Shown here in pieces: positions 1,397-17,423 of a stretch of 64,000 nucleotides of DNA; position 1 is the stretch's first letter; every line of letters begins with the position of its first letter. Under the pieces are notes generated by a model. That model did no database searches. It saw only the letters and a program-made list of their open reading frames with translations, and had not been told where the DNA came from. Both the position numbers and the translations under genes were made by a program. Source of the stretch: Actinoplanes sichuanensis. GTDB taxonomy: Bacteria; Actinomycetota; Actinomycetes; Mycobacteriales; Micromonosporaceae. The stretch spans positions 7,502,001 to 7,566,000 of the forward strand of contig NZ_AP028461.1 of the NCBI RefSeq assembly GCF_033097365.1, written 5' to 3'.

Positions 1397-2923
1397 ATGG
1401 CCGCGGTGGGAGAGGTCGTCGGGGGACGTTATCGACTCGTCCGCTCGCTCGCCTCAGGTCACATGAGTCGCATCTGGCTGTCCGTCGACGAGAAGACCGA
1501 CGAATACGTCGTGGCCAAACACTGCGCCCTCCCCGACGGCCTCACCATCGGTCAGCAGGAACTCCTCCGGGACTGGGCGCTCCCGGAGGCCGCCGCCGCC
1601 TCCCGCGTCGAGCACCCCAACGTGATCCAGACCCACGACGTCCTACCGTCCTGGGACGGGCCGTGGATCATCATGGAGTACCTGCCGTCCCGCTCGCTGC
1701 ACCAGATGATCGACGAGTCCGGGCCGATGTCCCCGGTCCGCGTCGCCCGGATCGGCCTGCTGCTGGTGTCCGCGCTGCGGGCGGCCGGGCGCGCCGGAGT
1801 GCTGCACCTCGACGTCAAACCGGGCAACGTGCTGATCACCGACGAGGGTCGGGTCGTGCTCACCGACTTCGGCCCGGCCGTCACACCGAACGGCATCCGC
1901 ACCCTCGCCGACGCCGGGATCGTGCTCGGCTCCCCGAAATACATCGCACCCGAACGCATCTACGACCACGCCACCGACGAGCGGTCCGACCTGTGGTCCC
2001 TCGGGGCGACGCTCTACCACGCCGTCGAGGGTCGGCCGCCGTTCCTGTACCCCACCACCGCCGAGGTGCTGCGGGCCGTCGGTGCCGCCCGGCCCGACCC
2101 GCCCCGCCGGGCCGGGCCACTCACACCGGTGCTGGCCGGGCTCCTGCGCCGTGACCCGTCCGACCGGCTCACCGTCACCGGCGCCGAGTGGGCGTTGCGC
2201 GGCGTCATCGAGGCCGGCCGCCGCCGGCCACGCTCCACGACACGCCGCCGCATTCCGGCCATCGTCGCGGCGGTCGCCGTCACCACGACGCTCACCGCGG
2301 TCGCGGCGACCGCACAGGGCGAGACCCGCGCGCGTACGGACACCGCCGCCGTCACCACCACCGCACCCACCCACACCGCCCGGTCCACTCCCGCCGTCGC
2401 CCACCCGAACCAGGGTCCCGCCGGTGCGGCGGGTCCCGTCGGCACCGGTGGTCTCGCCGGTGCGGGGGACGGCCGGGGCGGGCTACCGGAGATCCCACCG
2501 CCGGACGGCCATACCTGGTGGGACAGCCCGGAGGGGTACCGGATCGCGGTACCGGCCGGTTGGCACCGCGACGAGATCCCGGGCGGGCAGGCCTTCCGAT
2601 CCGACCGGAACCGGGCGATGTTCGGCATCACGGCCCTACCCGAACCCCCATCGGACGTGGTCGCCGAACTGGAGATCGCCGAGATGGAGACCCACCTGCC
2701 GGGCTACCGCCGACTCCGCCTGGAAGCGCTTCCGGACCCGCTGGCTGCCGTCTGGGAGTACACCTTCCAGGATCCGGACGGCACCGCCATGCGCTCACTA
2801 CGCCGGGTCACCAGCGTCGGCGGCCGCTCCTACGTCCTGGAGTGGCAGTCCACCCGCAAGGCCTGGGCCGAGCAGCTGGCCGACTACACCGTCGTACTGG
2901 CCTCGTTCACCACCCACCCCTGA
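1397..2923 (+). CDS. Membrane Ser/Thr protein kinase with extracellular C-terminal domain
   Basis: The 508-residue protein has a Hanks-type kinase domain at about residues 10-265, a membrane segment near 285-305, a Thr/Pro/Gly-rich linker and an extracellular domain at about 370-505 that begins WWDSPEGYRIAVPAGW. Catalytic landmarks are Lys41 (VVAKH), LDVKPGN with Asp139, DFG at 157-159 and a SPKYIAPERI activation end. Two departures are visible: the glycine loop is LASGHMSRIW, with a single glycine, and the usual HRD is HLD. Activity is therefore likely but not certain. The external domain resembles those that sense or bind the cell surface in PknB-like kinases, though it is not a PASTA domain. 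It ends 18 bp before the convergent histidine kinase gene. Confidence 0.9.
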   Translation: MAAVGEVVGGRYRLVRSLASGHMSRIWLSVDEKTDEYVVAKHCALPDGLTIGQQELLRDWALPEAAAASRVEHPNVIQTHDVLPSWDGPWIIMEYLPSRSLHQMIDESGPMSPVRVARIGLLLVSALRAAGRAGVLHLDVKPGNVLITDEGRVVLTDFGPAVTPNGIRTLADAGIVLGSPKYIAPERIYDHATDERSDLWSLGATLYHAVEGRPPFLYPTTAEVLRAVGAARPDPPRRAGPLTPVLAGLLRRDPSDRLTVTGAEWALRGVIEAGRRRPRSTTRRRIPAIVAAVAVTTTLTAVAATAQGETRARTDTAAVTTTAPTHTARSTPAVAHPNQGPAGAAGPVGTGGLAGAGDGRGGLPEIPPPDGHTWWDSPEGYRIAVPAGWHRDEIPGGQAFRSDRNRAMFGITALPEPPSDVVAELEIAEMETHLPGYRRLRLEALPDPLAAVWEYTFQDPDGTAMRSLRRVTSVGGRSYVLEWQSTRKAWAEQLADYTVVLASFTTHP

Positions 2924-2941
2924 TCCACGGCATCGGGCGGG

Positions 2942-4840
2942 TCAGCCGTACCCCCGGATGAGGTTCGGCAGGACCTCGGCGACCTTGTGCAGCAGGTCGT
3001 GGGCGGTGAAGGGCTTCTCGATGAAGGCGATGTCGCCGTCCAGGACGTGGGTGGTGCCGAGGAGGCCGTTGCTGTAGCCGGACATGTAGAGGACCGGCAG
3101 ACCGGGCTCGGCCTGGTGGACGAGTTCGGCGAGGCGGCGGCCGGACATCTCCGGCATGATCACGTCGGTCAGCAGAAGATCGCAGCCGTGCTGGTGGAAC
3201 AGGGTCAGCGCCTGCGGGCCGCCGGTGGCGGTGAGCACGCGGTAGCCGCCCCCCGCGAGGATCCGGGTGACCACCCGGGCCAGGGCCGGCTCGTCCTCGA
3301 CGACCAGGATGGTGCGGCCGTCCCCGGACGGCGGGTCGTCCTGGCGCAGGACCGCGGGGACCCCGGTGCCGGAGGCGACGGCGATCGGCAGGTAGATACG
3401 GAACGTGGTGCCGACACCGGGTTCGGAGTAGACGTTGATGCTGCCGCCCGCCTCGGCGACGATGCCGTAGACCGTGGACAATCCCAGCCCGGTGCCCTGA
3501 CCTCGGGGTTTGGTCGTGTAGAAGGGTTCGAAGATGTGTGCCGCCACGTCCGCGGTCATGCCTTCGCCGGTGTCGCTGACCAGCAGGCGGGCGTAGGTTC
3601 CGGCGGGCAGTGGGGGCTGCATCTCGAGTTCGCCGCCGTCCAGGGCCGCGGTGTTGGCCTCCAGGACCAGGGTGCCACCGTCCGGCATCGCGTCGCGGGC
3701 GTTGATCGCCAGGTTGAGCAGCACCTGCTGGAGCCGGCCGGGGTCGGCGTGGACCATCACCGGCGCCGGGGACGGCACCATGATCAGGTTGATGTGTTCG
3801 CCGATGGTGCGGCCGAGCATCGCGTGCACCTCGGCCAGGCCGGCGTTCAGGTCGACGTCCTGCGGCTGGATGGTGTCGCCGCGGGTGAAGGTCAGCAGCT
3901 GGCGGGTCAGATTGATGGCCCGGTCGGCGGCGCTGCGCACGTGTTTCAGGTCGGCGGCCAGGGCGTCGTTGCCGGCCGCCTCCTCAGCGGCGAAGTCGGT
4001 GTAGTTCACGATGATCGCCAGGATGTTGTTGAAGTCGTGGGCCACCCCGCCGGCCAGTTTGCCGAGACTCTCCATCCGCTGGGCCTGGTGGGTGCGTTCC
4101 TCGATGGCCCGCCGGCGTTCCGCCGCCTCCTTGATCGCGGTGATGTCCCGGACCACCGCGGAGAACCCGATCGGCTGCCCGAACCGGTCCTTGACCAGGG
4201 CCACACTGAACGACGCCTCGACCGGCGTGCCGTCCTTGCGGAAGCGGCGGGTCTCGTACGACACACCGCGCTCCCCGGCCCGGATCCGCCGCATCATGTC
4301 CCGCTGCTCCACCGCGCCGGCATCGTCGGTCAGCACCTGGGCGTGCACTCCGATGACCTCGTCGGCGGTCCAGCCGAAGAGCCGTTCCGCGCCACGGTTC
4401 CAGGCGGTGAGGACGCCGTCCAGGTCAGAGCCGATGATCGCCTCGTCGGTGTGCTCGACCACCGCCTCCAGGGTGGCCCGGTGCGCGTCGGCCTCGTCTT
4501 GGAACCGTTTCCGCTGCGGGTCGGGGTAGATCGCCCCGGCCGGTGACCGGCTGCGCCGTCGGACCGTCCAGTAGTAGACACCGGCTCCCCCGGTCACCAC
4601 GTTCCAGCAGGCCAGCGCCCACACCCAGGCGCGGCTCACCTCGGTGAAGACCAGGTAGGCGTGCAGTCCGTGCCCGACCGCGGCGGTCAGGAAGATCAGC
4701 GCCGTGGCCACCGCGAGCCTGTTGCTCCGCAGCTGCCCGGCCCGCGCGACCGGCACCGCGATGGCCACCGTGATCGCCGCGTAAGTGATCATGGTGCCCA
4801 GGTTGCCGAGCAGAAAAAGCTGTTCCGGCACGGTCGTCAT
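2942..4840 (-). CDS. Hybrid PAS-sensor histidine kinase with receiver domain
   Basis: The protein is 632 residues from the ATG at 4840; a GTG three codons upstream (4849) is an alternative. The order is three hydrophobic segments (about 1-105), a PAS domain with PAC (about 140-255), a dimerization/phosphoacceptor domain with His268 in GGVAHDFNN, an HATPase domain with DTGEGM and GQGTGLGLS, and a C-terminal receiver with Asp559 in LLLTDVIMP. A receiver after the kinase makes it a hybrid phosphorelay kinase. No partner regulator with an output domain is adjacent. It is divergent from the ketosynthase gene with 51 bp between starts and an inverted repeat there. Whether it senses a signal for that cluster is only inference. 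Confidence 0.9.
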   Translation of the reverse strand: MTTVPEQLFLLGNLGTMITYAAITVAIAVPVARAGQLRSNRLAVATALIFLTAAVGHGLHAYLVFTEVSRAWVWALACWNVVTGGAGVYYWTVRRRSRSPAGAIYPDPQRKRFQDEADAHRATLEAVVEHTDEAIIGSDLDGVLTAWNRGAERLFGWTADEVIGVHAQVLTDDAGAVEQRDMMRRIRAGERGVSYETRRFRKDGTPVEASFSVALVKDRFGQPIGFSAVVRDITAIKEAAERRRAIEERTHQAQRMESLGKLAGGVAHDFNNILAIIVNYTDFAAEEAAGNDALAADLKHVRSAADRAINLTRQLLTFTRGDTIQPQDVDLNAGLAEVHAMLGRTIGEHINLIMVPSPAPVMVHADPGRLQQVLLNLAINARDAMPDGGTLVLEANTAALDGGELEMQPPLPAGTYARLLVSDTGEGMTADVAAHIFEPFYTTKPRGQGTGLGLSTVYGIVAEAGGSINVYSEPGVGTTFRIYLPIAVASGTGVPAVLRQDDPPSGDGRTILVVEDEPALARVVTRILAGGGYRVLTATGGPQALTLFHQHGCDLLLTDVIMPEMSGRRLAELVHQAEPGLPVLYMSGYSNGLLGTTHVLDGDIAFIEKPFTAHDLLHKVAEVLPNLIRGYG

Positions 4841-4850
4841 ATCGGACACT

Positions 4851-4875
4851 GTTCGGTCATGCTGAGGGACCGAAC
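4851..4875. promoter_or_regulatory. Inverted repeat in the kinase/ketosynthase divergent promoter
   Basis: GTTCGGTC (4851-4858) and GACCGAAC (4868-4875) are perfect 8-bp inverted arms separated by 9 bp. They fill half of the 51-bp gap between the histidine kinase start (4840, minus) and the ketosynthase start (4892, plus). The position suits an operator controlling one or both genes. The binding protein is unknown, and no DNA-binding regulator sits next to the site. Confidence 0.5.
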
Positions 4876-4891
4876 CGTCAGTGGGGGGATA

Positions 4892-5872
4892 GTGCGAGTC
4901 GGAATCACCGGGGTGGGCGCCCATCTGCCGGAGCGCGAGGTCACCACGACCGAGCTGCAGGACCGGATCGGGAAGCTCCCCCGCGGCCTGCTCGCCCGGC
5001 TCACCGGGATCGAACGGCGGCGGATCGCGGCCGACCACGAGTACGCCTCCACGCTCGGCCTGCACGCCGCCCGCAACGCCCTCGCCTCGGCCGGCCGGCG
5101 CCCGGAGGACGTCGACCTGCTGCTGTTCGCGTCGGCCAGCCGGGACATGGTCGAACCGGCGACCGCGCACATCCTGCAGGACGCGCTCGGCAGCCGGGCC
5201 CACGCGCTGGACGTGACGAACGCCTGCAACAGTTTCGTCAACGGGATCGACCTGGCCCGGTCGATGATCCTGGCCGGGCGGGCCCGGCGGGCACTGGTGG
5301 TCACCGGGGAGACACCGAGCCGGGTGATGCGACCGCGGGTGTCCGGGCTGGCCGAGGCACGGCGGGCGTTCGCCGGGTACACGTTCGGCGACGCCGGGGC
5401 GGCCGTGGTGGTCGAACCGGTCGAGCGGGGCGGGATCATCGACGTGGACACCGCCACCCACTCCGAGCACTGGACGGTCGGCGGGATCCCGGGCGGCGGG
5501 TCACGGCATCCGCGGGGCGAGGAGCACACCTACTTCACCGGCGACGGGCACCGGCTGCGCGGGGTGTTCGAGACGATCGGGGCGGGCATCCTGGACCGGG
5601 TCCGGGAACGCACCGGGATGGAGTACACCGAGTACGCCCGGATTCTGGTGCACCAGGTGACGATGCCCTACCTGGAGAAGTTCGTCGAGGTGACCGGGGT
5701 GCCGAAGGACCGGCTCGACATCACCGTCACGACTCTCGGCAACATGGCCAGCGCGACCCTCGGCGTGCAGCTCAGCCGCATCCACCCGGAGTTGGCGCCG
5801 GGCGACCGGGTGCTGTTCATCGGGCTCGGCGGCGGTGTCAGCATGATGACCATGGTGTGGGAACGATCATGA
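4892..5872 (+). CDS. Type III 3-oxoacyl synthase (FabH/OleA-like)
   Basis: The 326-residue protein is a thiolase-fold condensing enzyme. The triad is complete: Cys112 (DVTNACNSF), His254 (LVHQVTMP) and Asn284 (LGNMASATL), close to the spacing known for FabH (112/244/274). TGIERRRIA near the N-terminus and a C-terminal GLGGGVSMM are typical of the family. The GTG start at 4892 follows a G-rich Shine-Dalgarno (GGGGGG). The stop overlaps the next start (ATGA), so translation is coupled to the glycosyltransferase. Primary FabH normally sits with other fab genes; here the neighbours are a ligase, glycosyltransferases and an OleD-like reductase. That suggests a specialised acyl condensation, head-to-head as in OleA or with another acceptor. 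The substrate cannot be read from sequence. Confidence 0.88.
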   Translation: MRVGITGVGAHLPEREVTTTELQDRIGKLPRGLLARLTGIERRRIAADHEYASTLGLHAARNALASAGRRPEDVDLLLFASASRDMVEPATAHILQDALGSRAHALDVTNACNSFVNGIDLARSMILAGRARRALVVTGETPSRVMRPRVSGLAEARRAFAGYTFGDAGAAVVVEPVERGGIIDVDTATHSEHWTVGGIPGGGSRHPRGEEHTYFTGDGHRLRGVFETIGAGILDRVRERTGMEYTEYARILVHQVTMPYLEKFVEVTGVPKDRLDITVTTLGNMASATLGVQLSRIHPELAPGDRVLFIGLGGGVSMMTMVWERS

Positions 5873-6606
5873 CCAGGCTGTGGGTGGTGGTGCCCGCTTA
5901 CAACGAGGCGACCCGGATCAGCGCCACCCTGGACGCGCTGGCCGCACAGACCGACACCGACTTCACCCTGCTCGTCGTCGACAACGCCTCGACCGACACG
6001 ACGGTCGCGACGGTCGAGGCGTTCCGTGGCCGCGCGCCGTTCCCGATGCGGGTGCTCGTCGAGACCGAGAAGGGTGTGGGCTGCGCGGTCGACACCGGGT
6101 TCCGGCACGCCATCGCGGCGGGGGCGGTGCTGCTGGCGCGTACCGACGCCGACTGCCTGCCCCGGCCCGGCTGGGTGGCGGCGGCCCGGGCCGCGCTGGA
6201 CGACGGAGCCGGCCTGGTGTGCGGCCGGATCACCGCCCGCCGCGACGAGCACGGACCGGCCGGGCGTGCGGTGTTCCGGCTGCTGGTGGCATTGGCGGCG
6301 GCGTTCGGGCGGATCCGGCCGGCACATCGCGACAGCGGGTTCCGGGCGCCCTACCGGATGCACGCGGGCAACAACATGGCGATCACCGCGGCGCTCTACC
6401 AGGAGTGCGGCGGGATGCCGCGGCGGCCGTCGCCGACCGACCGGCTCTTCCTCAACCGGGTACGCCGGACCACCTCATCGATCGTGCACAGCCGGTCGAT
6501 GGTGGTGGAGAACTCGACCCGGCGGCTGCGTGCGTACGGGGTGCTGCGGACCGCCCGCTGGTACCTCGACCGTGGCAGTGGCGCCCTGACCCCGGACCCA
6601 CGATGA
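5869..6606 (+). CDS. Family 2 glycosyltransferase (first of two paralogues)
   Basis: The 245-residue GT-A type protein begins with LWVVVPAYNEATRISATLDA and contains VVDNASTD (nucleotide binding) and LARTDADCLP, whose DAD is the metal-binding DxD. The start is taken at the ATG overlapping the ketosynthase stop. It shares several blocks with the protein at 8059-8823: DTGFRHAI, LARTDADCLP, a conserved FR-PY segment and a C-terminal RRLRA-G-RT block. The two are therefore tandem paralogues that flank the ligase. There is no membrane segment. It probably transfers a sugar to the lipid or polyketide made by the cluster; donor and acceptor are unknown. Confidence 0.88.
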   Translation: MTRLWVVVPAYNEATRISATLDALAAQTDTDFTLLVVDNASTDTTVATVEAFRGRAPFPMRVLVETEKGVGCAVDTGFRHAIAAGAVLLARTDADCLPRPGWVAAARAALDDGAGLVCGRITARRDEHGPAGRAVFRLLVALAAAFGRIRPAHRDSGFRAPYRMHAGNNMAITAALYQECGGMPRRPSPTDRLFLNRVRRTTSSIVHSRSMVVENSTRRLRAYGVLRTARWYLDRGSGALTPDPR

Positions 6607-6616
6607 GGGGAGCCCC

Positions 6617-8062
6617 TTGCTCGACGCGCTGAGCACCGGTGTGATGTCCGGCCCCGCCCTGTTGCGGGGCCGGAAGACCGTCTCCGGGGAGGACCTGACC
6701 AGGCTCCGCGACCGGTACGCGACCGCCCTGCACGCCCGTGGCCTGGGCGCCGGCGACACGCTCGGGCTGGCGATCCGCCCCGGACCACGGGCGGTGGCCA
6801 TGGTGCTCGCGGCGTACCGGCTGGGCGTGCGGGTGGCGCTGCTCGACCCGACCGCCGGCCCGGACGTGCTCACCGCCCGGTTGTCGCTGGCCCGGCCCGC
6901 CCTGATCGTCGCCGACGCGGCCGCCCAGGCGGTCGCCGGATGGGCCGCCCCACTGGCCCGCCGGGCCGGATTGGCCCTTCCCGACTTCACCGCGCTCGGG
7001 CCGACCGTCACCGTCGGCGCCCGGCTGCCGGGCAACGCCCCGGCGCTGGAGCTGCGGCCCGGCCCGGTGCCGGCCGCCTACGACGGTGACGGCGACGCGG
7101 TGATCATCTTCACCTCGGGGACCACCAGCAGCCCGCGCGCGGTCGTGCACACCCGGGCCGGGCTCGACGCCGGGCTACGGTCGGTGGCCGAGTTGGTCCG
7201 GCCGGTCGCCGGAGTGCCGGTGCTCGGCGGCACGTTCTTCGTGATGGTGCCGTCGCTGGCCGCCGGTGCGCCGGTCGCCACCCCCGATCGCCGCCCGCGG
7301 GTGCTGGCCCGGCAGGTCCTCGGCCTGCGGCCGCAGGCCGTCTATCTCACTCCGCCGCAGCTGCGGGCCGCACTGGACGGCGGGGTGCCGTTCCGCGGGC
7401 GGGTCTACAGCGGGTCGGCGCCGGTGTCGGCACACCTACTCGACCGGGTGCGGGCCGCCGGCGCCGACGAAGCCTGGGGGGTCTACGCGCTGACCGAGGT
7501 GTTCCCGGCGGCCGCCGTCGAATCCCGGGACAAGGGCGCCTGGGACGGCGCCGGTGATCTCGTCGGCGACCTGCTCCCCGGGGTGCACGGTCGGGTCGGC
7601 GACGACGGGCAGCTGCTGCTCGCCGGCACCGGGGTCTGTGACCGCTACCTCGGCGCCGAACCGCACGAATGGGTCGCCACCGGGGACATCGCCACCCTGT
7701 CCGGGCGACGGGTGGTGCTCGGCGGGCGCAGCAAGGACATGATCCTGCGCAACGCGGAGAACATCTATCCCGGCCTGTACGAGCCGTCGCTGCACGTACC
7801 CGGCGTCTCGCTCGCCGTCCTGGTCGGGGTGCCGGCCGGCGACGGTGACGAACACGTGGTCGCCATCGTCGAGACCGTCCCCGGCGTCGATCGGGCCGGC
7901 GTCGAGGCGGCACTGCGCGGGCCCCTCGACCGGATGGGTTCGGCGCGGCCGGACCGCGTCATGTTCGCCCCGGTGCCCCTGGCCGGGCGTTCCCGCAAAC
8001 CCGACCGGAACGCTGCGGCTTCGCTCGCCTCATCGATACCCCATCAGCGGGTACGGCCATGA
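6617..8062 (+). CDS. AMP-forming acyl ligase/synthetase (OleC-like)
   Basis: The 481-residue protein belongs to the ANL adenylating superfamily. The P-loop is IIFTSGTTSSPRAVVHT; the hinge region reads ATGDIATLSGRRVVLGGRSK and is followed by DMILRNAENIYPGLYEP. The end has a short lysine-containing tail (GRSRKPDRN). It is somewhat shorter than typical acyl-CoA ligases (over 500 residues). The TTG start at 6617 follows GAGGGGAG, the better of the local options. Its stop overlaps the next start (ATGA). By family it activates a carboxylate as an adenylate. With a ketosynthase and an OleD-like reductase nearby, a role like OleC (beta-lactone formation from a beta-hydroxy acid) is plausible but unproven. 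No carrier protein gene is adjacent. Confidence 0.85.
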   Translation: MLDALSTGVMSGPALLRGRKTVSGEDLTRLRDRYATALHARGLGAGDTLGLAIRPGPRAVAMVLAAYRLGVRVALLDPTAGPDVLTARLSLARPALIVADAAAQAVAGWAAPLARRAGLALPDFTALGPTVTVGARLPGNAPALELRPGPVPAAYDGDGDAVIIFTSGTTSSPRAVVHTRAGLDAGLRSVAELVRPVAGVPVLGGTFFVMVPSLAAGAPVATPDRRPRVLARQVLGLRPQAVYLTPPQLRAALDGGVPFRGRVYSGSAPVSAHLLDRVRAAGADEAWGVYALTEVFPAAAVESRDKGAWDGAGDLVGDLLPGVHGRVGDDGQLLLAGTGVCDRYLGAEPHEWVATGDIATLSGRRVVLGGRSKDMILRNAENIYPGLYEPSLHVPGVSLAVLVGVPAGDGDEHVVAIVETVPGVDRAGVEAALRGPLDRMGSARPDRVMFAPVPLAGRSRKPDRNAAASLASSIPHQRVRP

Positions 8063-8823
8063 GCGCGCCGGTCGTCGCGGTCGTCGTGCCCGCCTTCGAC
8101 GAGGCCGGGTCGATCGGGGCGACCCTGGCGGCGCTCGGGCGGCAGACCGATCAGGGGTTCCGGCTGATCGTCGTCGACAACGCGTCCACCGACGACACCG
8201 TCGGGGTCGTCCGGCGTTTCGCGGAGACGGCCGCGTTCCCGGTGGAGATCGTCACCGAGACCGAACGCGGGGCGGGCACCGCCGCCGACACCGGATTCCG
8301 GCACGCCATCACGACCGGCAGCCGGTTCCTGGCCCGCACCGACGCCGACTGCCTGCCGGCGGTCGACTGGGTGGCGACACTTCGGGCGTACCTCGGCAAC
8401 GGTTTCGATCTTGTCTGTGGCCGCAGTGTCCCGCGCCGCGACGAGCAACCGACCTGGGCCGAACGCCACGTCTTCCCGGCCGCCGTGCGGCTCGCCGCGG
8501 TGTACGGCCGCTATCGCAAGGCGCACCGGACGCCGGACTTCCGCAGCCCTTATGTCCTGGTCCACGGGCACAATCTGGCCCTGACCGCCGACCTCTACCT
8601 GCGTTGCGGAGGCACCGCGCGGGAGGCGCTGGAGGACGGCTCCGAGGACGTGACGCTCCTCAACCGGGCCCGCCGCGTCACCGACCGCATCATCCGGGCC
8701 GAGGACCTCGTCGTCGAGTCCAGTCTGCGACGGTTACGAGCGTGGGGCCCCCGCCGAACCCTCCTCTGGTATTGGGACCGCCGATACCGCCCCACCACCC
8801 CGTCCCAGGTCCACGTCCGCTGA
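8059..8823 (+). CDS. Family 2 glycosyltransferase (second paralogue)
   Basis: The 254-residue GT-A enzyme begins VAVVVPAFDEAGSIGATLAA, with VVDNASTDDTV and LARTDADCLP (DxD) in the same positions as the gene at 5869-6606. The second half has FRSPYVLVHGHNLALTADLY and a final RRLRAWGPRRTLLWYWDRR. The start overlaps the ligase stop, so it is translationally coupled. Duplicated glycosyltransferases either side of the ligase suggest two successive sugar additions or two acceptors. The gene is followed by a repeat-rich 404-bp spacer, where the tight coupling ends. Confidence 0.88.
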   Translation: MSAPVVAVVVPAFDEAGSIGATLAALGRQTDQGFRLIVVDNASTDDTVGVVRRFAETAAFPVEIVTETERGAGTAADTGFRHAITTGSRFLARTDADCLPAVDWVATLRAYLGNGFDLVCGRSVPRRDEQPTWAERHVFPAAVRLAAVYGRYRKAHRTPDFRSPYVLVHGHNLALTADLYLRCGGTAREALEDGSEDVTLLNRARRVTDRIIRAEDLVVESSLRRLRAWGPRRTLLWYWDRRYRPTTPSQVHVR

Positions 8824-9227
8824 CCCCCAACGCCGCTCCGCCCCTACCCACACACACAACAACCCGACCCCACCCACCGCCACCCAAACCCCCGCCGCCA
8901 CCGCCACCGCCACCCGAACCCCACCGCCACCCGAATCCCACCGCCACCCGAATCCCCCACCACCACCCGGATCACCCACCACCACCCGGATCACCCACCA
9001 CCACCCGGATCACCCACCGGGCGGCTCCGCCGGCTGGTTGACCGGGCTGTCGCATGGCTCACCGCGACAGCGCCCAGAGCTAGCCGGGCATTTCGGGCTT
9101 TCGGCCGACCTGAAGGCGGCGGCATGCGCGGGCGACGGCGGCCGCTTCCGGGTCGAGGCGCGAATTGACCTCGGCTGCGAAGCGAACGATGATCGCGTTC
9201 TCTGGACGGGGCTACGGGAGGCCGAAC
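8824..9227. repeat. C-rich spacer with tandem repeats upstream of P450
   Basis: No gene is visible in this 404-bp gap. Three exact 19-bp copies (CCACCACCACCCGGATCAC) lie at 8957-9013, preceded from about 8907 by degenerate 16-17-bp CCGCCACCCGAA units. The + strand is almost pure C/A here, with very little G or T. The rest (9014-9220) is ordinary GC-rich sequence leading to the GGGAGG Shine-Dalgarno of the P450. Confidence 0.75.
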
Positions 9228-10415
9228 ATGTCGCACGCGCGGGCGCGCCGCCGGGACCGTCAGGTCTACCTGCGCAGCCACCCGGTGCTGTTCGCGCTGA
9301 TGGCAGCCGCTCGCCGCCGGCCGACGACCCGAATCGGCACGACCGTTCTCGCCCACTCACGCTCCGCGTTCACCGACGGCCTGACTCGGATACCGCTGGA
9401 CCGCACGGCCGAAGGCACCACCGGCGGCGCGGCGGGCCGGTTGACCGGTGGCGGCCTGCTTTTCGATCAGGAGGGCGACGATCATCGCGGTTCCCGACGC
9501 GACCTGGCCGAATCTCTCGGAGCCGACGGGGTCGCGCGGTTACGCCCGGTATGGACCGATGTCCTGGACCGCCGCCTGAAACCGCTGGCCGACGGCGACC
9601 CGATCGACCTGGTCGACGTGGCCGCCGAACTCTCCGGCGCCACCGCCGCCGCCCTCCTCGGCCTCACCGTCGATCCCCTCGAACTGGCATCCGCAGCCCG
9701 AGCCGCCGCCGCGGCCGGCGCCCGCGAACATCTGCCCGGCCTACCGTTCCCCCGCCGCCGCCGAGCCGCCGAACAGGCCGCCGCCCGGCTGAACACCCTG
9801 CTCGCGCCGTCGCCCGACGCCCGCCTGAACGCCCCGCTCGCGCCGTCGCCCGACGCCCGCCTGAACGCCCCGCCCGCGCCGTCGCCCGACGCCCGGCTGA
9901 ACGCCCCGCTCGCGCCGCCGCCCGACACCGGCCTCGCCGCGATGCTCGCGGTGGCCGCGATCAACACGACGGTCGCGGGGTTGCCGCGGGCGGCGGCCTG
10001 GTGTGCCGACGCAGACCTCTGGGCGTACGTCGAAACCGCCCCCGAAGCTCTGACCGGCGAACTCCTCCGCGTGACCGCCCCCACACCGCTGCTTCCCCGG
10101 TCGGCCGCGGCCCCGGGCACGATCGCCGGGCGCCCGATCCGCCGAGGCGACCGTCTGATTCTGATCACCCGGCACGCGGTGAACGCCCACAACCACGACC
10201 CCTCCCCCACCGCCCCGGCTCCACCACACGTCGCACAACTGGTCTTCGGCGTGGGCCCACACGCCTGCCCGGGCGCCCGCCTGGCCCGCACCCAGTTGCT
10301 CGACGCCCTGACCGCCCTCGCCCCATACCGCCCCGTGGTGACAAGGGCTCGCGCCTCCCGAAGAAGCGCCCTACCCGGCTGGTCGTCCCTGATCATCACC
10401 GCCACCACCTGCTGA
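9228..10415 (+). CDS. Cytochrome P450
   Basis: The 395-residue protein has the heme loop FGVGPHACPGARLA with Cys347 as the thiolate ligand, and an ExxR (GELLR, from Glu278). The I-helix is degenerate: INTTVAGLP carries two threonines but not the usual AGxDT. The ATG at 9228 follows GGGAGG by six bases. Residues about 188-235 are four near-identical 12-residue repeats (LNAPLAPSPDAR), an in-frame insertion of 36-bp units. They fall between the N-terminal half and the I-helix region and are not part of the fold. The P450 may oxidise the cluster's lipid product. Reduced activity is possible given the insertion and weak I-helix. Confidence 0.85.
   Translation: MSHARARRRDRQVYLRSHPVLFALMAAARRRPTTRIGTTVLAHSRSAFTDGLTRIPLDRTAEGTTGGAAGRLTGGGLLFDQEGDDHRGSRRDLAESLGADGVARLRPVWTDVLDRRLKPLADGDPIDLVDVAAELSGATAAALLGLTVDPLELASAARAAAAAGAREHLPGLPFPRRRRAAEQAAARLNTLLAPSPDARLNAPLAPSPDARLNAPPAPSPDARLNAPLAPPPDTGLAAMLAVAAINTTVAGLPRAAAWCADADLWAYVETAPEALTGELLRVTAPTPLLPRSAAAPGTIAGRPIRRGDRLILITRHAVNAHNHDPSPTAPAPPHVAQLVFGVGPHACPGARLARTQLLDALTALAPYRPVVTRARASRRSALPGWSSLIITATTC
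9789..9932 (+). repeat. Four 36-bp tandem repeats inside the P450 gene
   Basis: Four consecutive 36-bp units each start CTGAAC and encode L-N-x-x-x-A-P-x-P-D-x-x. The second unit differs from the first by only two bases; the third and fourth are more diverged. The unit length is a multiple of three, so the frame is kept. This is a coding minisatellite. Confidence 0.85.
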
Positions 10416-10986
10416 TCCACCCGTGCGGTGCGGAGCAGCGACCCGTCGAGTTCCCGCCGCTCCTCGCGACATGACCGCCCCACCATGGAACACAGCCGCC
10501 GACCGGCCACGCCCGACGACCGGCCGATTCAGCCCGGACCGAGACCGGCAGCCACTCCCGACCCCAACCCGGACCGAGACCGGCAGCCACTCCCAACCCC
10601 AACCCGGACCGAGACCGGCAGCCACTCCCAACCCCAACCCGGACCGAGACCGGCAGCCGCACCCAGCCCCAAGCCCGGACCCACGCACGCAGCCGCACCC
10701 AACCCCAACCCGGACCGACACCGACAACCGCTCCCAGCCCTAGCCCGAATCGGGGCCGGCAGCCGCACCCAGCCCCAGCCCGGATCGGGGCCGGCAGCCG
10801 CACCCAGCCCCAGCCCGCGCGACCGAAAGGGAAGGGCCGGCTGTCCGTGGCCGGGCGACTGTCACACATCACCTCGGGCGGACGTGACCACGTCGGCGCA
10901 CCGCTGGCAGCCCCTCCACAACCCCGGTGGAGACGCCCGGAGCTGGGCTTGAGCCGCCGGGTGGGTGGGGTGGGAGGATCCTGGGC
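10416..10986. repeat. Intergenic minisatellite of eight 35-36-bp units
   Basis: The 571-bp gap between the P450 and the OleD-like gene holds no convincing gene. From 10536 to 10816 it contains eight tandem units of 35 (one 36) bp, each close to GGACCGAGACCGGCAGCCAC followed by a CCC-AACCCC-type tail. The first three are nearly identical and the last ones drift to GGATCGGGGCCGGCAGCCGC. The flanks (10416-10535 and 10817-10980) show nothing else beyond GC-rich spacer. Confidence 0.8.
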
Positions 10987-12051
10987 ATGATCGCGGTGAC
11001 CGGGGGGAGCGGGTTCTGCGGCAGTGTGGTGGCTCGGGCGGCCGCCGGGCTCGGGGCCACGGTCGTCTGTCTGGGGCGGCGGCCCGGGCCGGTCGGGGAG
11101 TTCCGGTACTGGGACGCTGCCCGTACCACGCCGGATCTGACCGGGATCGACGTCGTGCTGCATCTCGCGGCCGCCGTCGGTGACCCGCCGCCCGGCCGCG
11201 GATCGGAGGCCGCCTTCCGGGCGGTCAATGTGGACGGGGCCGCCCGCCTGCTGGACGCGGCCGGCGATCGGCCGATCGTGTGGGTGAGCAGCGCGAGCGT
11301 CTACGCACCGGCCGGACCGGAAGCGATCAGTGAGGACCATCCGCTGGCCGGGATGACCGCCTACGGGCGGACGAAAGCGGCAGGCGAACGGCTGGCCCTC
11401 GACGCGGGGGCCGTGGTGCTACGGCCGCGGGCCGTCTACGGGACCGGTGATCCGCATCTGCTGCCCCGGCTGCGGCGGGCGGTTCGGGGCGGGCGGGCGC
11501 TGCTACCCGGACCCGATGTGACGCTCAGCCTGACCGCCGTCGAAAACCTGGCCGATGCCTGCCTGGCCGCGGCGGGTTTGTCGGCGGGCGGCACGGGCCC
11601 GCAAAGCAACACGAGCCCGGAAAGCCGCACAAACCCGGAAATCGGAACAAACCCGGCGAGTACAGCGGCGGGCGGCGCGACCGCGGCAGGTGCGGCGGCG
11701 GGCTCGACGGGACGGGCGGGTGCGTCGGCGGGCTCGGCGGGACGGGCGGGTGGGGTGGGCTGGGTGGCCGGCGCCTACAACATCGCGGACGCGGTCGCCT
11801 ATCAGCGGGACGCGGTGGTGGCCGCGGTGTGTGGTGTGCCGGTGATGCACCTGCCGATTCCGCTGGTCGGCGCGGCCGCCGCGATGGTCGGCGCGGCGGC
11901 GCGGTTCACCCGACGTCCGCCGATCCTCTCCCGGTACGCCGTGGAGCAGCTCACCAGCCCGGTCGTCCTCGACATCAGCCGGGCCCGGGCGCAGGGCTGG
12001 GTGCCGCGCCGTTCGTTCGCCGATTACCTGGGCACGCTGCCGCCACGCTGA
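10987..12051 (+). CDS. NAD-dependent epimerase/dehydrogenase, OleD-like (3-beta-HSD type)
   Basis: The 354-residue extended SDR starts MIAVTGGSGFCG (Rossmann glycine motif). It has DVVLHLAAAV, SSASVYAPAG and the catalytic pair in TAYGRTKAAGE (Tyr-x3-Lys). The C-terminal part, from YNIADAVAYQRDAV to RYAVEQLTSPVVLDISRARA, matches the layout of 3-beta-hydroxysteroid dehydrogenase and OleD proteins that reduce 2-alkyl-3-keto acids. The ATG at 10987 is chosen because the glycine motif follows at once. Residues about 205-265 are a Gly/Ala/Ser/Thr-rich insertion with imperfect repeats that ordinary members lack. Its likely role is to reduce the beta-keto product of the ketosynthase. Confidence 0.82.
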   Translation: MIAVTGGSGFCGSVVARAAAGLGATVVCLGRRPGPVGEFRYWDAARTTPDLTGIDVVLHLAAAVGDPPPGRGSEAAFRAVNVDGAARLLDAAGDRPIVWVSSASVYAPAGPEAISEDHPLAGMTAYGRTKAAGERLALDAGAVVLRPRAVYGTGDPHLLPRLRRAVRGGRALLPGPDVTLSLTAVENLADACLAAAGLSAGGTGPQSNTSPESRTNPEIGTNPASTAAGGATAAGAAAGSTGRAGASAGSAGRAGGVGWVAGAYNIADAVAYQRDAVVAAVCGVPVMHLPIPLVGAAAAMVGAAARFTRRPPILSRYAVEQLTSPVVLDISRARAQGWVPRRSFADYLGTLPPR

Positions 12052-12087
12052 TCCCGGGTCGGACCGGGCCCGGGTGCGCGGTGCCGG

Positions 12088-13257
12088 TCACCGCCGGCCG
12101 GTGTGCTGACGGGCCAGGTAGGCGGCTCGGCGGTCGGGGGTGGCGGCCAGGTCGGTGGCGGTCCGGGCGAGGAGTTTGGCGGCGTGCAGCAGGGCCTCGT
12201 CGGCGGCCGGGGTGACGGTCACGGCCGCGAACTCGTGGGTGTGCGGCATCGCGGTCACGCCCCGGAGGCCGATCATCGGGTGGATGGACGGTACGACGTG
12301 GCTGACGTTGCCCATGTCGGTGGAGGCCGCGCTGACACCGCCCGGCAGCGGCACCGCGGCCCGACCGAACGCCGGCAGGTGGCTGCCGTAGCGTTCGATC
12401 AGCCAGGGATCGTTGCGCAGGTCGAGGTAGTCGGGTTCGGTGCGGCGGAACTCGACCGTGGCGCCGGTGGCCAGTGCCCCGGCCTCGAAGCAGGCGTGCA
12501 CCCGGCGGCGCAGGGCGTCCAGCTGGGCGGCGCCGGGGGTGCGGACCTCGTATTCGAGGACGCTGCGTTCGGGGATGATGTTGGTCTTGTCGCCGCCGGA
12601 GCTGACGAAACCGGCGATCCGGTAGACGGGTGGCGTCTGCTGGCGGAGCAGGCCGATCGCCACCTGGGCGACGACCGCGGCGTCGGCGGCGTTCACCCCG
12701 TCCCACGGTGCGCCCGCCGCGTGCGCCGGACGGCCCCGGAACGTGACCGCGAAACGGCTGCACGCCTGGGTGCTGTCGCCGACCGCGGCGGTGTCGGCGG
12801 CCGGGCCGGGGTGGGCCATCATCGCCACGGTCACGTCGTCGAAGCCGCCGCGTTCGAGCATCAGCTGTTTACCGGCGCCGCTCTCCTCGGCCGGGGTGCC
12901 GAGCAGGACGATTCGGAAGCCGTAGCGGTCGGCGGCGGCCCGTAACGCGATCGCCGCCCCGGCCGACGACGCGCAGATGACGTTGTGGCCGCAGCCGTGG
13001 CCGATGCCGGGGAGTGCGTCGTATTCGGCGCAGATCCCGATCGTCAGCTCACCCTCGCCGTAGGTGGCACGCAGGGCCGTCGGCAGTTCGCAGACACCCT
13101 CGCTGACGTCGAACCCGGCCGCCCCCATGATCGCCGCGAGTTTCGCCGCCGAGGCGTGCTCCTCGAACGCCGTCTCGGGTTCGGCGTGCAGGCTGTGACT
13201 GAGGCCGAGCAGCCGGGCCTGCCATTCGTCCACCGCGGCGTCGGTCACCAGCGACAT
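12088..13257 (-). CDS. M20 family metallopeptidase/amidohydrolase
   Basis: The 389-residue protein is an M20D-type amidohydrolase (aminoacylase / AbgB-like). Metal-binding motifs are GHGCGHN (after AEYDALPGI), TPAEESGAGK and MMAHPG, with a final MPHTHEFA histidine pair. The dimerization domain holds GRPAHAAGAPWDGVNA. The start is set at the ATG at 13257, where homology begins (MSLVTDAAVDEWQ); the open frame upstream is Arg-rich and unlikely to be translated. It probably hydrolyses an N-acyl amino acid or a small amide in the cytoplasm. A 14-bp terminator stem separates it from the wall protein gene upstream. Confidence 0.88.
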   Translation of the reverse strand: MSLVTDAAVDEWQARLLGLSHSLHAEPETAFEEHASAAKLAAIMGAAGFDVSEGVCELPTALRATYGEGELTIGICAEYDALPGIGHGCGHNVICASSAGAAIALRAAADRYGFRIVLLGTPAEESGAGKQLMLERGGFDDVTVAMMAHPGPAADTAAVGDSTQACSRFAVTFRGRPAHAAGAPWDGVNAADAAVVAQVAIGLLRQQTPPVYRIAGFVSSGGDKTNIIPERSVLEYEVRTPGAAQLDALRRRVHACFEAGALATGATVEFRRTEPDYLDLRNDPWLIERYGSHLPAFGRAAVPLPGGVSAASTDMGNVSHVVPSIHPMIGLRGVTAMPHTHEFAAVTVTPAADEALLHAAKLLARTATDLAATPDRRAAYLARQHTGRR

Positions 13258-13329
13258 TCCGTCATCGTAGGCCGGACCGTCCGACCCGGCACGCCGAGCG
13301 AGGCGGCGGCGACCGGAGGAACGGAAGGG

Positions 13330-13363
13330 CCGGGCAGGCCGGCGGGACGGCCGGCCTGCCCGG
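13330..13363 (-). terminator. Stem-loop terminator after the LAxTG protein gene
   Basis: CCGGGCAGGCCGGC (13330-13343) and its exact complement (13350-13363) form a 14-bp stem with a 6-nt loop. It lies 14 bp past the stop of the wall protein gene on the minus strand. There is no T-run, as is common for actinobacterial terminators. Confidence 0.65.
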
Positions 13364-13376
13364 TGCACGAGAGCGT

Positions 13377-14720
13377 CTAGTCGCGGGTGGGCCGGCGACG
13401 GGTCAGCAGCAGGGAGAGCAGACCGGCGAGGATCAGGCCGGCTCCGGCGAAACCGAAGACGGTCACATCGGTTCCGGTCAAGGCGAGACCGCTTCCACCC
13501 GTACCACCTGGGATGTCGTCGGAAGCGGAGGGGACCGCGACCGGAACGTCATCGATCGGGGTGGAGGTGTCCGGCGACGCCGAAGGCGAGTGGTCGACGT
13601 CGGGCGATGCCGAAGGCGAGGAGCCGACATCGGTGTCGACGTCGTCCGGGTAGTCCGGGAGCGGAGACGGCCGGAGCGGGCCCGGCTGTTGCGGGTGATC
13701 GGTCGCGACGGGCGCGCAGGCGACCACCGACAGGCTGCCGAGGGCGACGTCGAGCAGGTGGCTCATGCCGAGTTTGACCTCGACGCGCACGGTCGACGCC
13801 TCGGCCGAGACCTGACGTCCGCGCTGACCGTCCCGGACCTCACCGAGCGTGAACCGGACCTCGAGCGCGGCCGGCGGGCCCTGCGCGGTGCCGGTGAGCA
13901 GGCCGAGCGACACGGCGGCGCCGGCGTCCTTGAGGACCTGGACCGGCCGGCCGGCGGTGGTGATCCGCAGCACGGCCGGGCGGTAGTTCACGTCGGTCTC
14001 GCCCGGGCGGCTGCCGGCGACCACTTCGAGGGTGGGCTGGTTGACCACCTTGATCGAGATCTCCTGGGGCGTGCCGGGGAAGAGGCTCAGGTCACCGAGG
14101 GAGACACCGGCGCCGGATCGTACGCCCACCCGCCCGTGCCGCAGGTCGACCAGGTCGGTCGCGCTCTGTGCGGAGCCGGTCGGCCCGATCCGCAGCAGAC
14201 TGGTCGGTCGGCCACCCACGTTCACCGCGCCGTCCAGCACGGACAGCCCGCTGAGCATGGTCGCCGCCCGGGTCAGGGCGCCGGTCTTACCGCAGCGGTA
14301 GGCGTCGTCCCAGGTGGCATACGCGGTCGACCGTCCGGCGGCGGTGGTGGCGAGACCGGCGGCGTGGAAGGCGACGAGGTTCTTCTCATCGGGCCCGCCC
14401 GGTCCGGGCGCGGCGTGCCGGGCGCCGGCGCCACCGCCGGGGAGGCCCAGGATGCGGGCGTCGGCGTGCCGGCCGGAGGCGATGCTGCGGTACGGCCGTG
14501 CGGCGCTGTCCACGGTGCCCTCGGCGCTGGCGAGCCGCACGTCGGCCAGGGCGGGCATGCCTCTGGCGAGTGGGCCTGGATCCAGGACGGTGATCTTCGC
14601 GAGGTCGGCCCGGGAGCGCGCGGTGAAGTCTCCGGCGCAGTCCCGGGGTGTCGTGGCGGCCACCGGGGCGGCGGGCACGGCGAGCGCGGCGGCCACCAGC
14701 GCGTGCAGAGCGATCGGCAT
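13377..14720 (-). CDS. Secreted LAxTG cell-wall anchored protein
   Basis: The 447-residue protein has an N-terminal signal peptide (MPIALHALVAAALAVPAAPVA) and a C-terminal sorting signal: LALTG, a hydrophobic segment (VFGFAGAGLILAGLLSLLLT) and RRRPTRD. LAxTG is the motif used by class E sortases of actinobacteria. Between them is a roughly 300-residue beta-rich ectodomain without a family I can name, then an Asp/Ser/Pro spacer (about 345-410) with a repeated DxxxSPSASPD unit that would span the wall. Four cysteines may form disulfides. GGAAGGGAT lies just before the ATG. No sortase gene is adjacent. Confidence 0.82.
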   Translation of the reverse strand: MPIALHALVAAALAVPAAPVAATTPRDCAGDFTARSRADLAKITVLDPGPLARGMPALADVRLASAEGTVDSAARPYRSIASGRHADARILGLPGGGAGARHAAPGPGGPDEKNLVAFHAAGLATTAAGRSTAYATWDDAYRCGKTGALTRAATMLSGLSVLDGAVNVGGRPTSLLRIGPTGSAQSATDLVDLRHGRVGVRSGAGVSLGDLSLFPGTPQEISIKVVNQPTLEVVAGSRPGETDVNYRPAVLRITTAGRPVQVLKDAGAAVSLGLLTGTAQGPPAALEVRFTLGEVRDGQRGRQVSAEASTVRVEVKLGMSHLLDVALGSLSVVACAPVATDHPQQPGPLRPSPLPDYPDDVDTDVGSSPSASPDVDHSPSASPDTSTPIDDVPVAVPSASDDIPGGTGGSGLALTGTDVTVFGFAGAGLILAGLLSLLLTRRRPTRD

Positions 14721-14855
14721 GAGATCCCTTCCGAAAGGGGCGGGTTGTCCGATCTCTCATCGCCTTGCGCGGATTGCTAGGTACGGGGCTTTAGGACCTC
14801 TTTCACAGTGAGCATCTATGCGCAAACCAGACAGTTCCTCCGTTAACCGCCTATC

Positions 14856-16604
14856 TCAACGATCGGTACGGTCCTCCGGATAGCTCGCTCCCCCACTGGA
14901 TTCCTCGGTCAGTGGCCGAGCCCCTCCCTCGGGCGGCCCGGCCACCGACTCACCACCGGCCGCCAGCTGCGGAAACTTGACGTCGAAGGCGGGCCGCTCG
15001 GAACGGATCCGGGGCATCCGGTCGAAGTTGCGCAGCGGCGGCGGGCTGGACGTGGCCCACTCCAGCGAATTCCCGTGCCCCCACGGGTCGTCGACGGTCA
15101 CCACCGGACCGGCCCGGTACGACTTCCACACGTTGTAGAGGAACGGCAGCGTGGCCGCGCCCAGCACGAACGACCCGACCGTGGAGATCATGTTCAGCGT
15201 GGTGAAGCCGTCGCCGGGCAGGTAGTCCGCGTACCGCCGGGGCATGCCCTCGTTGCCGACCCAGTGCTGCACCAGGAACGTGGTGTGGAACCCGATGAAG
15301 GTCAGCCAGAAATGCACCTTCGCCAACTTCTCGTCGAGCATCCGGCCGAACATCTTCGGGAACCAGAAGTAGATGCCGGAGAAGACCGCGAACACGATCG
15401 TCCCGAACAGCACGTAATGGAAGTGGGCCACCACGAAATAGCTGTCGGTCACGTGGAAGTCGACCGGCGGCGACGCGAGCAGCACCCCGGTCAGACCGCC
15501 CAGCAGGAACGTCACCATGAACCCGACCGCGAACAGCATCGGCGACTCGAACGTGAGCTGCCCGCGCCACATCGTCCCGATCCAGACGAAGAACTTCATC
15601 CCGGTCGGAATCGCGATCAGATAACTGAGCAGACTGAAGAACGGCAGCAGCACCTGGCCGGTGGCGAACATGTGGTGCGCCCACACGCTCATCGACAGCA
15701 TGGTGATCAGAATCGTGGCGGCGACCAGTGTCTTGTAGCCGAACACCGGCTTGCGGCTGAACACCGGGACCACCTCGGTGATGATCCCGAAGAACGGCAG
15801 CGCGATGATGTAGACCTCGGGATGACCGAAGAACCAGAACAGGTGCTGCCACAGCATCGGGCCGCCGGTCTCCACGTTGAACACCTGCGCGCCGAGCACC
15901 CGGTCGGCCGCCAGGGCGAAGAGCGCGGCCGCCAGGAACGGGAAGACCAGCACCACGAGCACGCTGGTGAGCAGGATGTTCCACGTCATGATCGGCATCC
16001 GGAACATGGTCATCCCGGGAGCCCGCAGGCACAGGATCGTGGTGATCATGTTGACCGCGCCGAGGATCGTGCCGACACCGGAGATCGCCAGCCCGACCAC
16101 CCACATGTTGCCACCGACGCCCGGCGAATGCTGCCACGTACTCAGCGGCGTGTAGGCGGTCCAGCCGAAGTCGGCCGCACCACCCGGCACCAGGAAACCG
16201 CCGAACGCGATCAGTCCCCCGAAGAAATAGAGCCAGTACGCGAACGAGTTCAGCCGCGGGAACGCCACATCGGGAGCACCGATCTGAATCGGCACGACGA
16301 AGTTGGCGAAGGCGAAAACGATAGGCGTCGCGAAGAACAGCAGCATGATCGTGCCGTGCATGGTGAACAGCTGGTTGTACTGCTCCGGCGAGAGGATCTG
16401 CATGCCCGGCCGGCCCAACTCGGCCCGCATCAGCAGCGCCATCGCACCACCGAGCACGAACCACACGAACGCCGTGACCAGATACATGATCCCGATCTGT
16501 TTCGCATCGGTGGTACGCAGAGTCCGGGCCAACCAGGAGCCCCTGACCTGCCGCCGCAGCGGCCACGACCGGGATTGCACGGGGCGCGGGGAAACAGCGG
16601 TCAT
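14856..16604 (-). CDS. ctaD: Cytochrome c oxidase subunit I (aa3 type)
   Basis: The 582-residue, 12-helix protein is the catalytic subunit of the respiratory aa3 oxidase. Diagnostic ligands are visible: the low-spin heme histidine in [13 protein letters not shown] (the cross-linked His-Tyr of the CuB site), AHHMFATG (two CuB histidines) and HFHYVLFGT (heme a and a3 ligands). The ATG at 16604 follows GGGAGG by nine bases. The C-terminal hydrophilic tail is typical of actinobacterial CtaD. The gene stands alone; subunits II-IV are not in the window. Actinomycetes often keep a second, detached ctaD copy, and this may be one. Confidence 0.95.
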
Positions 16605-17423
16605 CGAAAGTCCTCCCTGGACTGTTCGTACTCCGCGGCGCCCGTCAGCACAACCCGGCAATGCCGGTCAACCCCTTTGAAGATCAACGATCATGCGGTA
16701 CGGAATGAGCGCCGTAACGCGGTTCCGCCCCGGTGCCGATGAGCGCCGTAACGCGGTTCCGCCCCGGTGCCGTGGCCGGGATGTCCCCGCCATCCGGAAC
16801 AGCCGGCCGGGTGGCATTCCGGCACCCGGCGACCGCTGTTCGGATGTCTGCGGTTGCGGCGTTCCCCCATCGAGCATGAACAAACCGGTCCCGGCGAAGA
16901 CGGCGGGCGTTCCATGCTCGATCTGCCGCCGGGCTGGAGATCACCGCACCAGGGGCCCGGTCGACAGGAAGACCGGCTGATCCTGCGCGGAGGCGGCGCT
17001 CGATGCGATCGAACCCGGCCCGCAGACCGAACTCGTCCAGCACGCCCGAACTCGTTCGCCCGACCTCATCCAGCCCGCAGACCGAAGCAGAACAACCGGC
17101 CGAAGCATCGCAGCCAGCGAGAGAAGGACAAATACTGAATAGTGCGGAAAAACCCCAAAACCTCATTGACCGACGCGGATGACTGACCCCCATCAAGCAG
17201 CCAACCTCAAGCGGGCCCGCGGATTTCAAAACGGGGCGGCCGACTTCGAGCGGGGCAAGCCAGCCGAAGCAGGGCAGCGGTGCGGGTGCATAGGCGAAGC
17301 GCCTTGCACTCGCTGAAGTGCCGGAAAGCCGGAAGGTCGACGACCGGGCGTTATGGCAGTCGGTCCGGTGTGGTGGCAGTCGGTCCGGAGTTGGGACGGT
17401 CGGTCCGGTGTGGTGGCAGTCGG
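16605..17423. other. 819-bp gap without a convincing gene; short repeats
   Basis: A 34-bp unit beginning ATGAGCGCCGTAACGCGG is repeated exactly twice in tandem at 16705-16738 and 16739-16772. Around 17120-17180 the sequence is locally less GC-rich, with A-runs. From about 17352 the motif GGCAGTCGGTCCGG recurs three to four times up to the end of the polymerase IV gene. Frames across this stretch are Arg/Pro-rich with no start signals, so I call none of them genes. The first 80 bp should contain the ctaD promoter on the minus strand. Confidence 0.55.

Follow-up and report, generated by a model that had tools for sequence, protein, structure and literature searches.

A conserved, apparently Ole-type operon with two glycosyltransferase genes in Actinoplanes sichuanensis

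What does a bacterium make with a ketosynthase, an AMP-forming ligase, a reductase, a cytochrome P450 and two glycosyltransferases whose genes lie in a row? The question is raised by a stretch of 64,000 nucleotides from Actinoplanes sichuanensis (NCBI RefSeq assembly GCF_033097365.1, contig NZ_AP028461.1, positions 7,502,001 to 7,566,000), which we call the window; the source genome is a single contig of 12.14 Mb. A first-pass annotation, made from the letters of the window, had described the six genes and proposed a glycosylated long-chain ketone, beta-lactone or related lipid as their product. Our answer has several grades. The operon is real and conserved, and is probably functional to judge by its sequence. 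Its reading as an Ole-type route to a glycolipid, in which fatty acyl chains are joined head to head, is sound, and a lactone is plausible. The full proposal, that these six genes form an Ole-type biosynthetic operon for a glycosylated hydroxy-beta-lactone lipid, is in our opinion evenly balanced between right and wrong.

The six genes and their recurrence

All six genes are on the plus strand at 4892-12051: a ketosynthase (KS), a family-2 glycosyltransferase (GT2; this one GTa), an AMP-forming ligase, a second GT2 (GTb), a P450 and a short-chain dehydrogenase/reductase (SDR). The open reading frames (ORFs) and their Pfam domains, in gene order ACP_syn_III, Glycos_transf_2, AMP-binding, Glycos_transf_2, p450 and Epimerase, bear out the description of six genes in a row on one strand.

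The same arrangement recurs in relatives. A scan of a genome collection with a 13-row KS alignment returned 454 relatives, and gene order was examined in the best 80 of them. KS-GTa-ligase-(GTb)-P450-SDR stands in this order on one strand in 71 of these 80 loci, three of which (L051, L053 and L056) have a KS hidden by an antisense match and placed from the KS scan; the remaining nine end at a contig edge after at least KS and GTa. GTb was found in 41 of the same best 80, and L117 has an additional P450 on the opposite strand. Hosts include Actinoplanes, Paractinoplanes, Micromonospora, Couchioplanes, Virgisporangium, Streptomyces, Actinacidiphila and Yinghuangia, so that the order, which the first-pass annotation had suggested looking for in other Micromonosporaceae, extends beyond that family. 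The closest named KS in the collection is that of Actinoplanes xinjiangensis (96%). Because the flanking genes vary among genera, we take the six genes to be the unit. The ratio of nonsynonymous to synonymous substitution (dN/dS) of the six genes, window against relatives L031 and L033, is 0.15-0.32; this and the recurrence of the order are more than chance.

Within its own genus the KS is present in 60 of 67 genomes, and in Streptomyces in 47 of 246, where the 51 matches comprise 21 that reach at least 535 bits, 5 around 440, 11 at 303-340 and 14 at 248-291. Of 200 genomes of the family, 65 (in 12 of 44 genera) have a ligase match, about one sixth of these being a distant sister type with 37-45% identity. 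In one of the 60 genomes, G852, the fetched stretch matches only KS and P450, besides distant ligase matches. This pair (6922-9122 of locus L179) is 56% and 47% identical to the window's KS and P450, has no matching GT or SDR, and adjoins genes that, judged by eye, resemble inositol catabolism. As for a link to the sporangium, in the portions of the literature covered by our search we recognised no paper on these genes, and the available part of a paper on an A. missouriensis acyltransferase does not mention P450, 3-oxoacyl, AMP-binding, glycolipid or acyl-CoA.

The first four genes were said to overlap or nearly touch, and indeed there are two stop-ATG overlaps and one short gap: the likely ATG of GTa and the ATG of GTb each overlap the stop of the gene before (KS and ligase, respectively), and GTa and the ligase are 10 bp apart. 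P450 and SDR are loosely packed, with preceding gaps of about 400 and 570 bp, both containing tandem repeats. The starts of GTa (likely), P450 and SDR (both probable) given in Table 1 were chosen over the ORF starts by the starts conserved among relatives.

Table 1. Genes of the operon, in window coordinates
Gene and proposed identity	Position	Strand	Basis
KS, OleA-type thiolase-fold ketosynthase (by sequence)	4892..5872	+	326 aa; Pfam; C112, H254, N284, E88; tree
GTa, family-2 glycosyltransferase	5869..6606 (likely start; ORF from 5857)	+	Pfam; DxD at 97-99; GT-A fold model
ANL AMP-forming ligase, sister of oleC-type ligases	6617..8062	+	Pfam; conserved residues; tree
GTb, second family-2 glycosyltransferase	8059..8823	+	Pfam; 53% identical to GTa; one clade 100/99
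Cytochrome P450	9228..10415 (probable start; ORF from 9165)	+	Pfam; ExxR; heme Cys368; 36-bp repeat
SDR, OleD-like NAD(P)-dependent reductase	10987..12051 (probable start; ORF from 10927)	+	Pfam; NCBIfam OleD 59 bits, below cut-off; Y126, K130

Ketosynthase, ligase, reductase and the question of OleB

Is the KS an OleA or a FabH? Numbered from the start at 4892 its triad is exactly C112/H254/N284, as first proposed, and these residues and E88 are kept in all 105 rows of relatives. In a 3-row alignment E88 falls on Glu117 of Xanthomonas OleA, the glutamate 26 residues before the active cysteine C143 (both numbers appear in PDB titles). An 83-row alignment has a glutamate here in 50 of 50 rows on the OleA side and in 0 of 33 on the FabH side. 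The KS tree splits the two sides at 100/99, with the window KS on the former and two other KS-III proteins of the host on the latter. This tree is midpoint-rooted, its Xanthomonas OleA row is partial and long-branched, and its FabH side consists of the 27 best non-family matches from a sample of 396 genomes of the phylum (FabH by inference), the two host proteins and four second KSs of Streptomyces loci. The FabH model TIGR00747 gives the window KS 134 bits, short of its cut-off of 292. On the tree and the glutamate, we assign the KS to the OleA type and not to FabH, and the tree that had been proposed as a check comes out in favour of the first reading.

Four Streptomyces loci (L171, L174, L177 and L178) have an OleA-side KS and a second, FabH-side KS within a few kb, L174 and L178 with a further KS-like ORF between the two; they are possibly other condensing-enzyme clusters.

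The ligase keeps E294, D357 and R371 in 99 of 99 rows and K461 in 98. In its tree, which had likewise been suggested as a check, the window-type and sister-type ligases together are the sister of ole-cluster ligases (96/95); the host ligase L213 branches next (92/93), and the remaining 28 host rows fall outside. In the SDR, S104 is found in 90 of 91 rows, and Y126 and K130 in all 91.

Twenty further loci were fetched, 19 of them from the lower Streptomyces score bands and one from the window's genus (that of G852). In L168, L169 and L172 the KS, ligase and SDR are accompanied by an OleB-like alpha/beta-hydrolase, assigned in L169 by 62% identity to that of L168; L164, L166, L170 and L174, among others, have a KS and no ligase or SDR match to the queries used. 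The absence of OleB was also claimed at the outset. The L168 hydrolase as query finds at best 28.7 bits in the source genome, 46.9 in G090 and 54.6 in G550, compared with 718, 419 and 281 bits in the three genomes that have an ole cluster. By this measure the claim stands and the source genome appears to have no comparable OleB, while a very divergent one remains conceivable. The companion claim, that a carrier protein and polyketide synthase modules are absent, holds as far as the 10 proteins at 1397-16661 scanned with Pfam, none of which has such a domain.

Several observations weigh against the Ole-type reading. Single-sequence and Foldseek searches with the KS place PqsD or FabH above OleA, which first appears at Foldseek rank 22 with a TMq of 0.88, the same as the top PqsD and FabH entries. 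Because these enzymes rank first, the fold does not discriminate, and we dropped structure as a discriminator. The ligase scores 45 bits with the OleC model NF045786, whose cut-off is 900; the model is centred on Xanthomonas, and the ole-cluster ligase L176 also stays below it with 372 bits. For the SDR the OleD model NF042422 gives the 59 bits of Table 1 against a cut-off of 580, and its grouping with ole-cluster SDRs in the tree is weak (81/68). Since the curated cut-offs are missed by far, we do not file these two proteins as members of OleC and OleD. Finally, according to the accessible text of PMC7064751, a purified OleA of Actinoplanes atraurantiacus, from a cluster to which we return below, did not react with the acyl-CoAs offered; there was little of the enzyme, and it precipitated. 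In favour of the reading, the same OleA showed activity towards p-nitrophenyl hexanoate in E. coli (PMC7064751). In our opinion, the ligase and the SDR nevertheless probably work like OleC and OleD.

Glycosyltransferases, P450 and the upstream region

The two GT2s were rightly called paralogues: they share their domain and are 53% identical. GTa has D97, D99 and D195 in 102 of 103 rows, with one gap; GTb has D95 in 51 of 52 rows and D97 and D197 in all 52. In a 52-row GT tree the 19 GTb rows form a single group (100/99) that spans Streptomyces and Micromonosporaceae, and GTb is therefore an old paralogue, missing from about half of the examined loci, rather than a recent copy. The single GT of a rearranged sister type of the cluster, described below, groups with GTb and not with GTa. 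A model of GTa (mean pLDDT 81) matches GT-A enzymes only generically (PcManGT, WrtF and TarS, TMq about 0.6), and we dropped any assignment of donor or acceptor from the fold. Automated labels of GTa relatives include "4,4'-diaponeurosporenoate glycosyltransferase"; they are no evidence of substrate.

Of 98 P450 rows, 96 keep the heme Cys368 and two are incomplete (L104 at a contig end, L040 in a run of N); E299 and R302 of the ExxR motif are kept in at least 97% of the 98. Immediately before the threonine of the I-helix, where P450s usually have an acid, 77 of 98 rows have Asn. Arrays of tandem repeats are also found in the half of the operon with P450 and SDR, at 8874-9019, 9778-9934, 10533-10817 and 11598-11752. 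The second is an in-frame 36-bp repeat within the P450 gene and the last consists of repeat-derived inserts in the SDR gene. The best-scoring units inside the two genes are 36, 18 and 30 bp, all multiples of three, while the intergenic ones include 19 and 35 bp, as if the reading frame had been retained. Relative L031 has shorter ORFs for P450 and SDR (360 and 307 aa).

Many relatives carry a conserved, operator-like palindrome before the KS gene. Scanned with up to two mismatches in all and spacers of 0-4, TGAGTAC-NN-GTACTCA occurs within 300 bp 5' of KS in 45 of 104 loci, and five times in the other 1.69 Mb of these loci; the form TGAGTACNNGTACTCA stands 51-119 bp 5' of the matched KS start (e.g. 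L082, L092, L099). With the spacer fixed at 2, 45 of 98 distinct upstream sequences match, whereas 150 permuted half-sites matched 0.04 on average and never more than 2. Since the motif was derived from these very loci, which are moreover related to one another, the count should be read as conservation and not as 45 independent events. The window is not among the carriers: it has no palindrome 5' of its KS and elsewhere three chance-level matches with three mismatches, and in its closest relatives the palindrome was likewise not found.

A stricter pattern gives 0-5 sites per genome in 14 Streptomyces genomes. We inspected 17 such sites, with Pfam run on representatives of the neighbours. Genes for acyl-CoA carboxylase epsilon and Maf flank four of them; two precede a gene for a PF01553-type acyltransferase, and three have a tetR gene, a DUF4126 gene or both nearby. 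BldM does not seem to be the reader, as its consensus TCACcCgnncGgGTGA, in the published text available, differs. A TetR protein is no more than a lead. In 7 of 9 Streptomyces loci the palindrome stands on the 3' side of an orthologous tetR, some 240-390 bp away; this is so in 0 of 2 own-genus loci, and tetR is missing from G121, G036 and G037, whose loci carry a variant palindrome. In the window a scan for sigma-70-type promoters found none before KS and a single weak match in the region of the P450 start. An inverted repeat 5' of the window KS (8-bp arms at -41) was set aside, as it was not found in the close relative L031.

Beyond the operon, a 447-aa ORF on the minus strand (13377-14720) has no Pfam domain and, at its C-terminus, only a match below cut-off to a LAXTG small-protein model; matches to it lie near the cluster in several Actinoplanes loci.

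The proposed product and its relation to known systems

How would these enzymes work together? The individual reactions, the order in which they occur, the identity of the sugar, the length of the chains and the presence of a lactone are all inferred. The KS would join two acyl-CoAs to a 2-alkyl-3-ketoacid, which the SDR would reduce to the 2-alkyl-3-hydroxyacid. The P450 would hydroxylate a chain, and one or both GT2s would attach a sugar to a hydroxyl. The ligase would adenylate the carboxylate and then close the beta-lactone, as OleC does. With OleB apparently lacking, the lactone would not be decarboxylated to an olefin, and a glycosylated hydroxy-beta-lactone lipid would be the end product. 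Of the products first named, the trees, the gene order and the OleB search favour a sugar-bearing, Ole-type lipid, whereas a plain ketone is the least likely because a ligase and a reductase are present.

The alternative that survives best keeps the condensation and gives up the lactone. A 2-alkyl-3-hydroxy fatty acid is the core motif of mycolic acids; KS and SDR may make such an acid, the ligase may only activate it for transfer, and the GT2s may make or decorate a glycoside or glycosyl ester, the product being a structural lipid of the envelope. Presence in 60 of 67 genomes of the genus would be unusual for an antibiotic cluster, the ligase is well under the OleC cut-off, and in Streptomyces the palindrome also stands beside the carboxylase epsilon/Maf and acyltransferase genes. 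On the other hand, the ligase is sister to oleC-like ligases and the conserved unit has no acyltransferase. We consider this alternative possible but doubtful. Less probable still, to our mind, is a PqsD-like scheme. Here the ligase would produce an acyl-CoA that is not fatty (aromatic, for instance), the KS would couple it to another acyl unit, and the result would be a glycosylated ketone, aromatic or alkyl, or a signal molecule and not a two-chain lipid. PqsD is the best single-sequence and the best Foldseek match of the KS, but in the alignment it has Asp and not Glu at the E88 position, and both KS and ligase group with ole-type proteins. That an ordinary FabH merely adjoins a housekeeping ligase can be dismissed as highly improbable, for although the fold and the C-H-N triad are common to FabH, the host's other KS-III proteins fall on the FabH side of the tree, the ligase tree and the E88 glutamate point elsewhere, the gene order is conserved, and in the phylum sample the own genome and two others reach at least 540 bits with the KS profile and the next protein 187, a gap widened because the profile was built from this KS family. 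The outcome that was to refute the first-pass annotation, KS and ligase grouping firmly with primary FabH and housekeeping ligases and no conserved order in relatives, did not occur.

Returning to the Ole-type route, we would venture, tentatively and with more doubt than belief, that it supplies an unseen class of envelope or developmental glycolipid common to Actinoplanes and many streptomycetes, namely a 2-alkyl-3-hydroxy or beta-lactone lipid to which one or two sugars are attached, its genes being near-universal in the genus and often governed by a conserved operator in lineages other than the window's subclade. If so, actinobacteria would have a second, mycolate-independent way to two-chain hydroxy-acyl glycolipids. 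It should be possible to find the product in type strains in culture. If it is a beta-lactone, it would contribute a scaffold for covalent inhibitors that bears sugar; if it is not, it would be a new two-chain glycolipid of antibiotic-producing bacteria.

Among known systems, the oleABCD-like clusters of Streptomyces (L168, L169, L172) have a homologous KS, ligase and SDR (the window KS is 40% identical to that of L168 and 38% to that of L172), but they carry an OleB-type hydrolase and no in-cluster match to the GT2s or P450 of the window. The lipstatin and nocardiolactone clusters make beta-lactones with OleA, OleC and OleD types and no oleB, according to the accessible text of PMC7064751. 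We liken the window to them by description and not by sequence; it differs in having a single KS, together with GT2s and a P450. Lipstatin and nocardiolactone clusters have a second, inactive KS partner. The rearranged sister type (L047-L049 and L161-L163, with L050 similar), which occurs in other Micromonosporaceae and in Streptomyces, has the same five families, and the window KS is 46-47% identical to those of L047-L050. Its order is KS-GT-P450-ligase-SDR with one GT and, except in L050, a further P450 beside the KS. We know of no product for it.

The nearest system is that of A. atraurantiacus. The first-pass annotation knew of no description of the route, but one exists: this gene set was printed in 2020, together with the chemistry inferred here (mBio; PMC7064751). 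As far as the accessible text of that paper goes, the cluster consists of OleA, a glycosyltransferase, OleC, a P450 and OleD in a genome with no candidate oleB; condensation, reduction, hydroxylation, glycosylation and beta-lactone closure are inferred to give a hydroxylated, glycosylated beta-lactone; and the cluster is presented as a prediction, no product being given. Its OleA is reported as 29% identical to Xanthomonas OleA; the KS of our locus L089, which we equate with the published cluster by species and gene content and not by accession, is 33% identical over the 299 OleA residues compared. L089 has the order KS-GTa-ligase-P450-SDR, as the window does, and a KS 71% identical to the window's. 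The window has the same five families on one strand and no comparable OleB, with two GTs where the published cluster has one; by its sequence we regard it as a two-GT member of the A. atraurantiacus type. In the open-access full-text literature, which leaves subscription journals mostly outside, we recognised no paper naming a product of such a cluster, and PMC7158056 contains none of six terms sought in it. New here are the breadth, the old second GT, the rearranged sister type and the conserved palindrome of relatives. A pathway predicted from one species turns out to be near-universal in its genus and frequent in Streptomyces, with a fixed order and with GTb in half of the examined loci.

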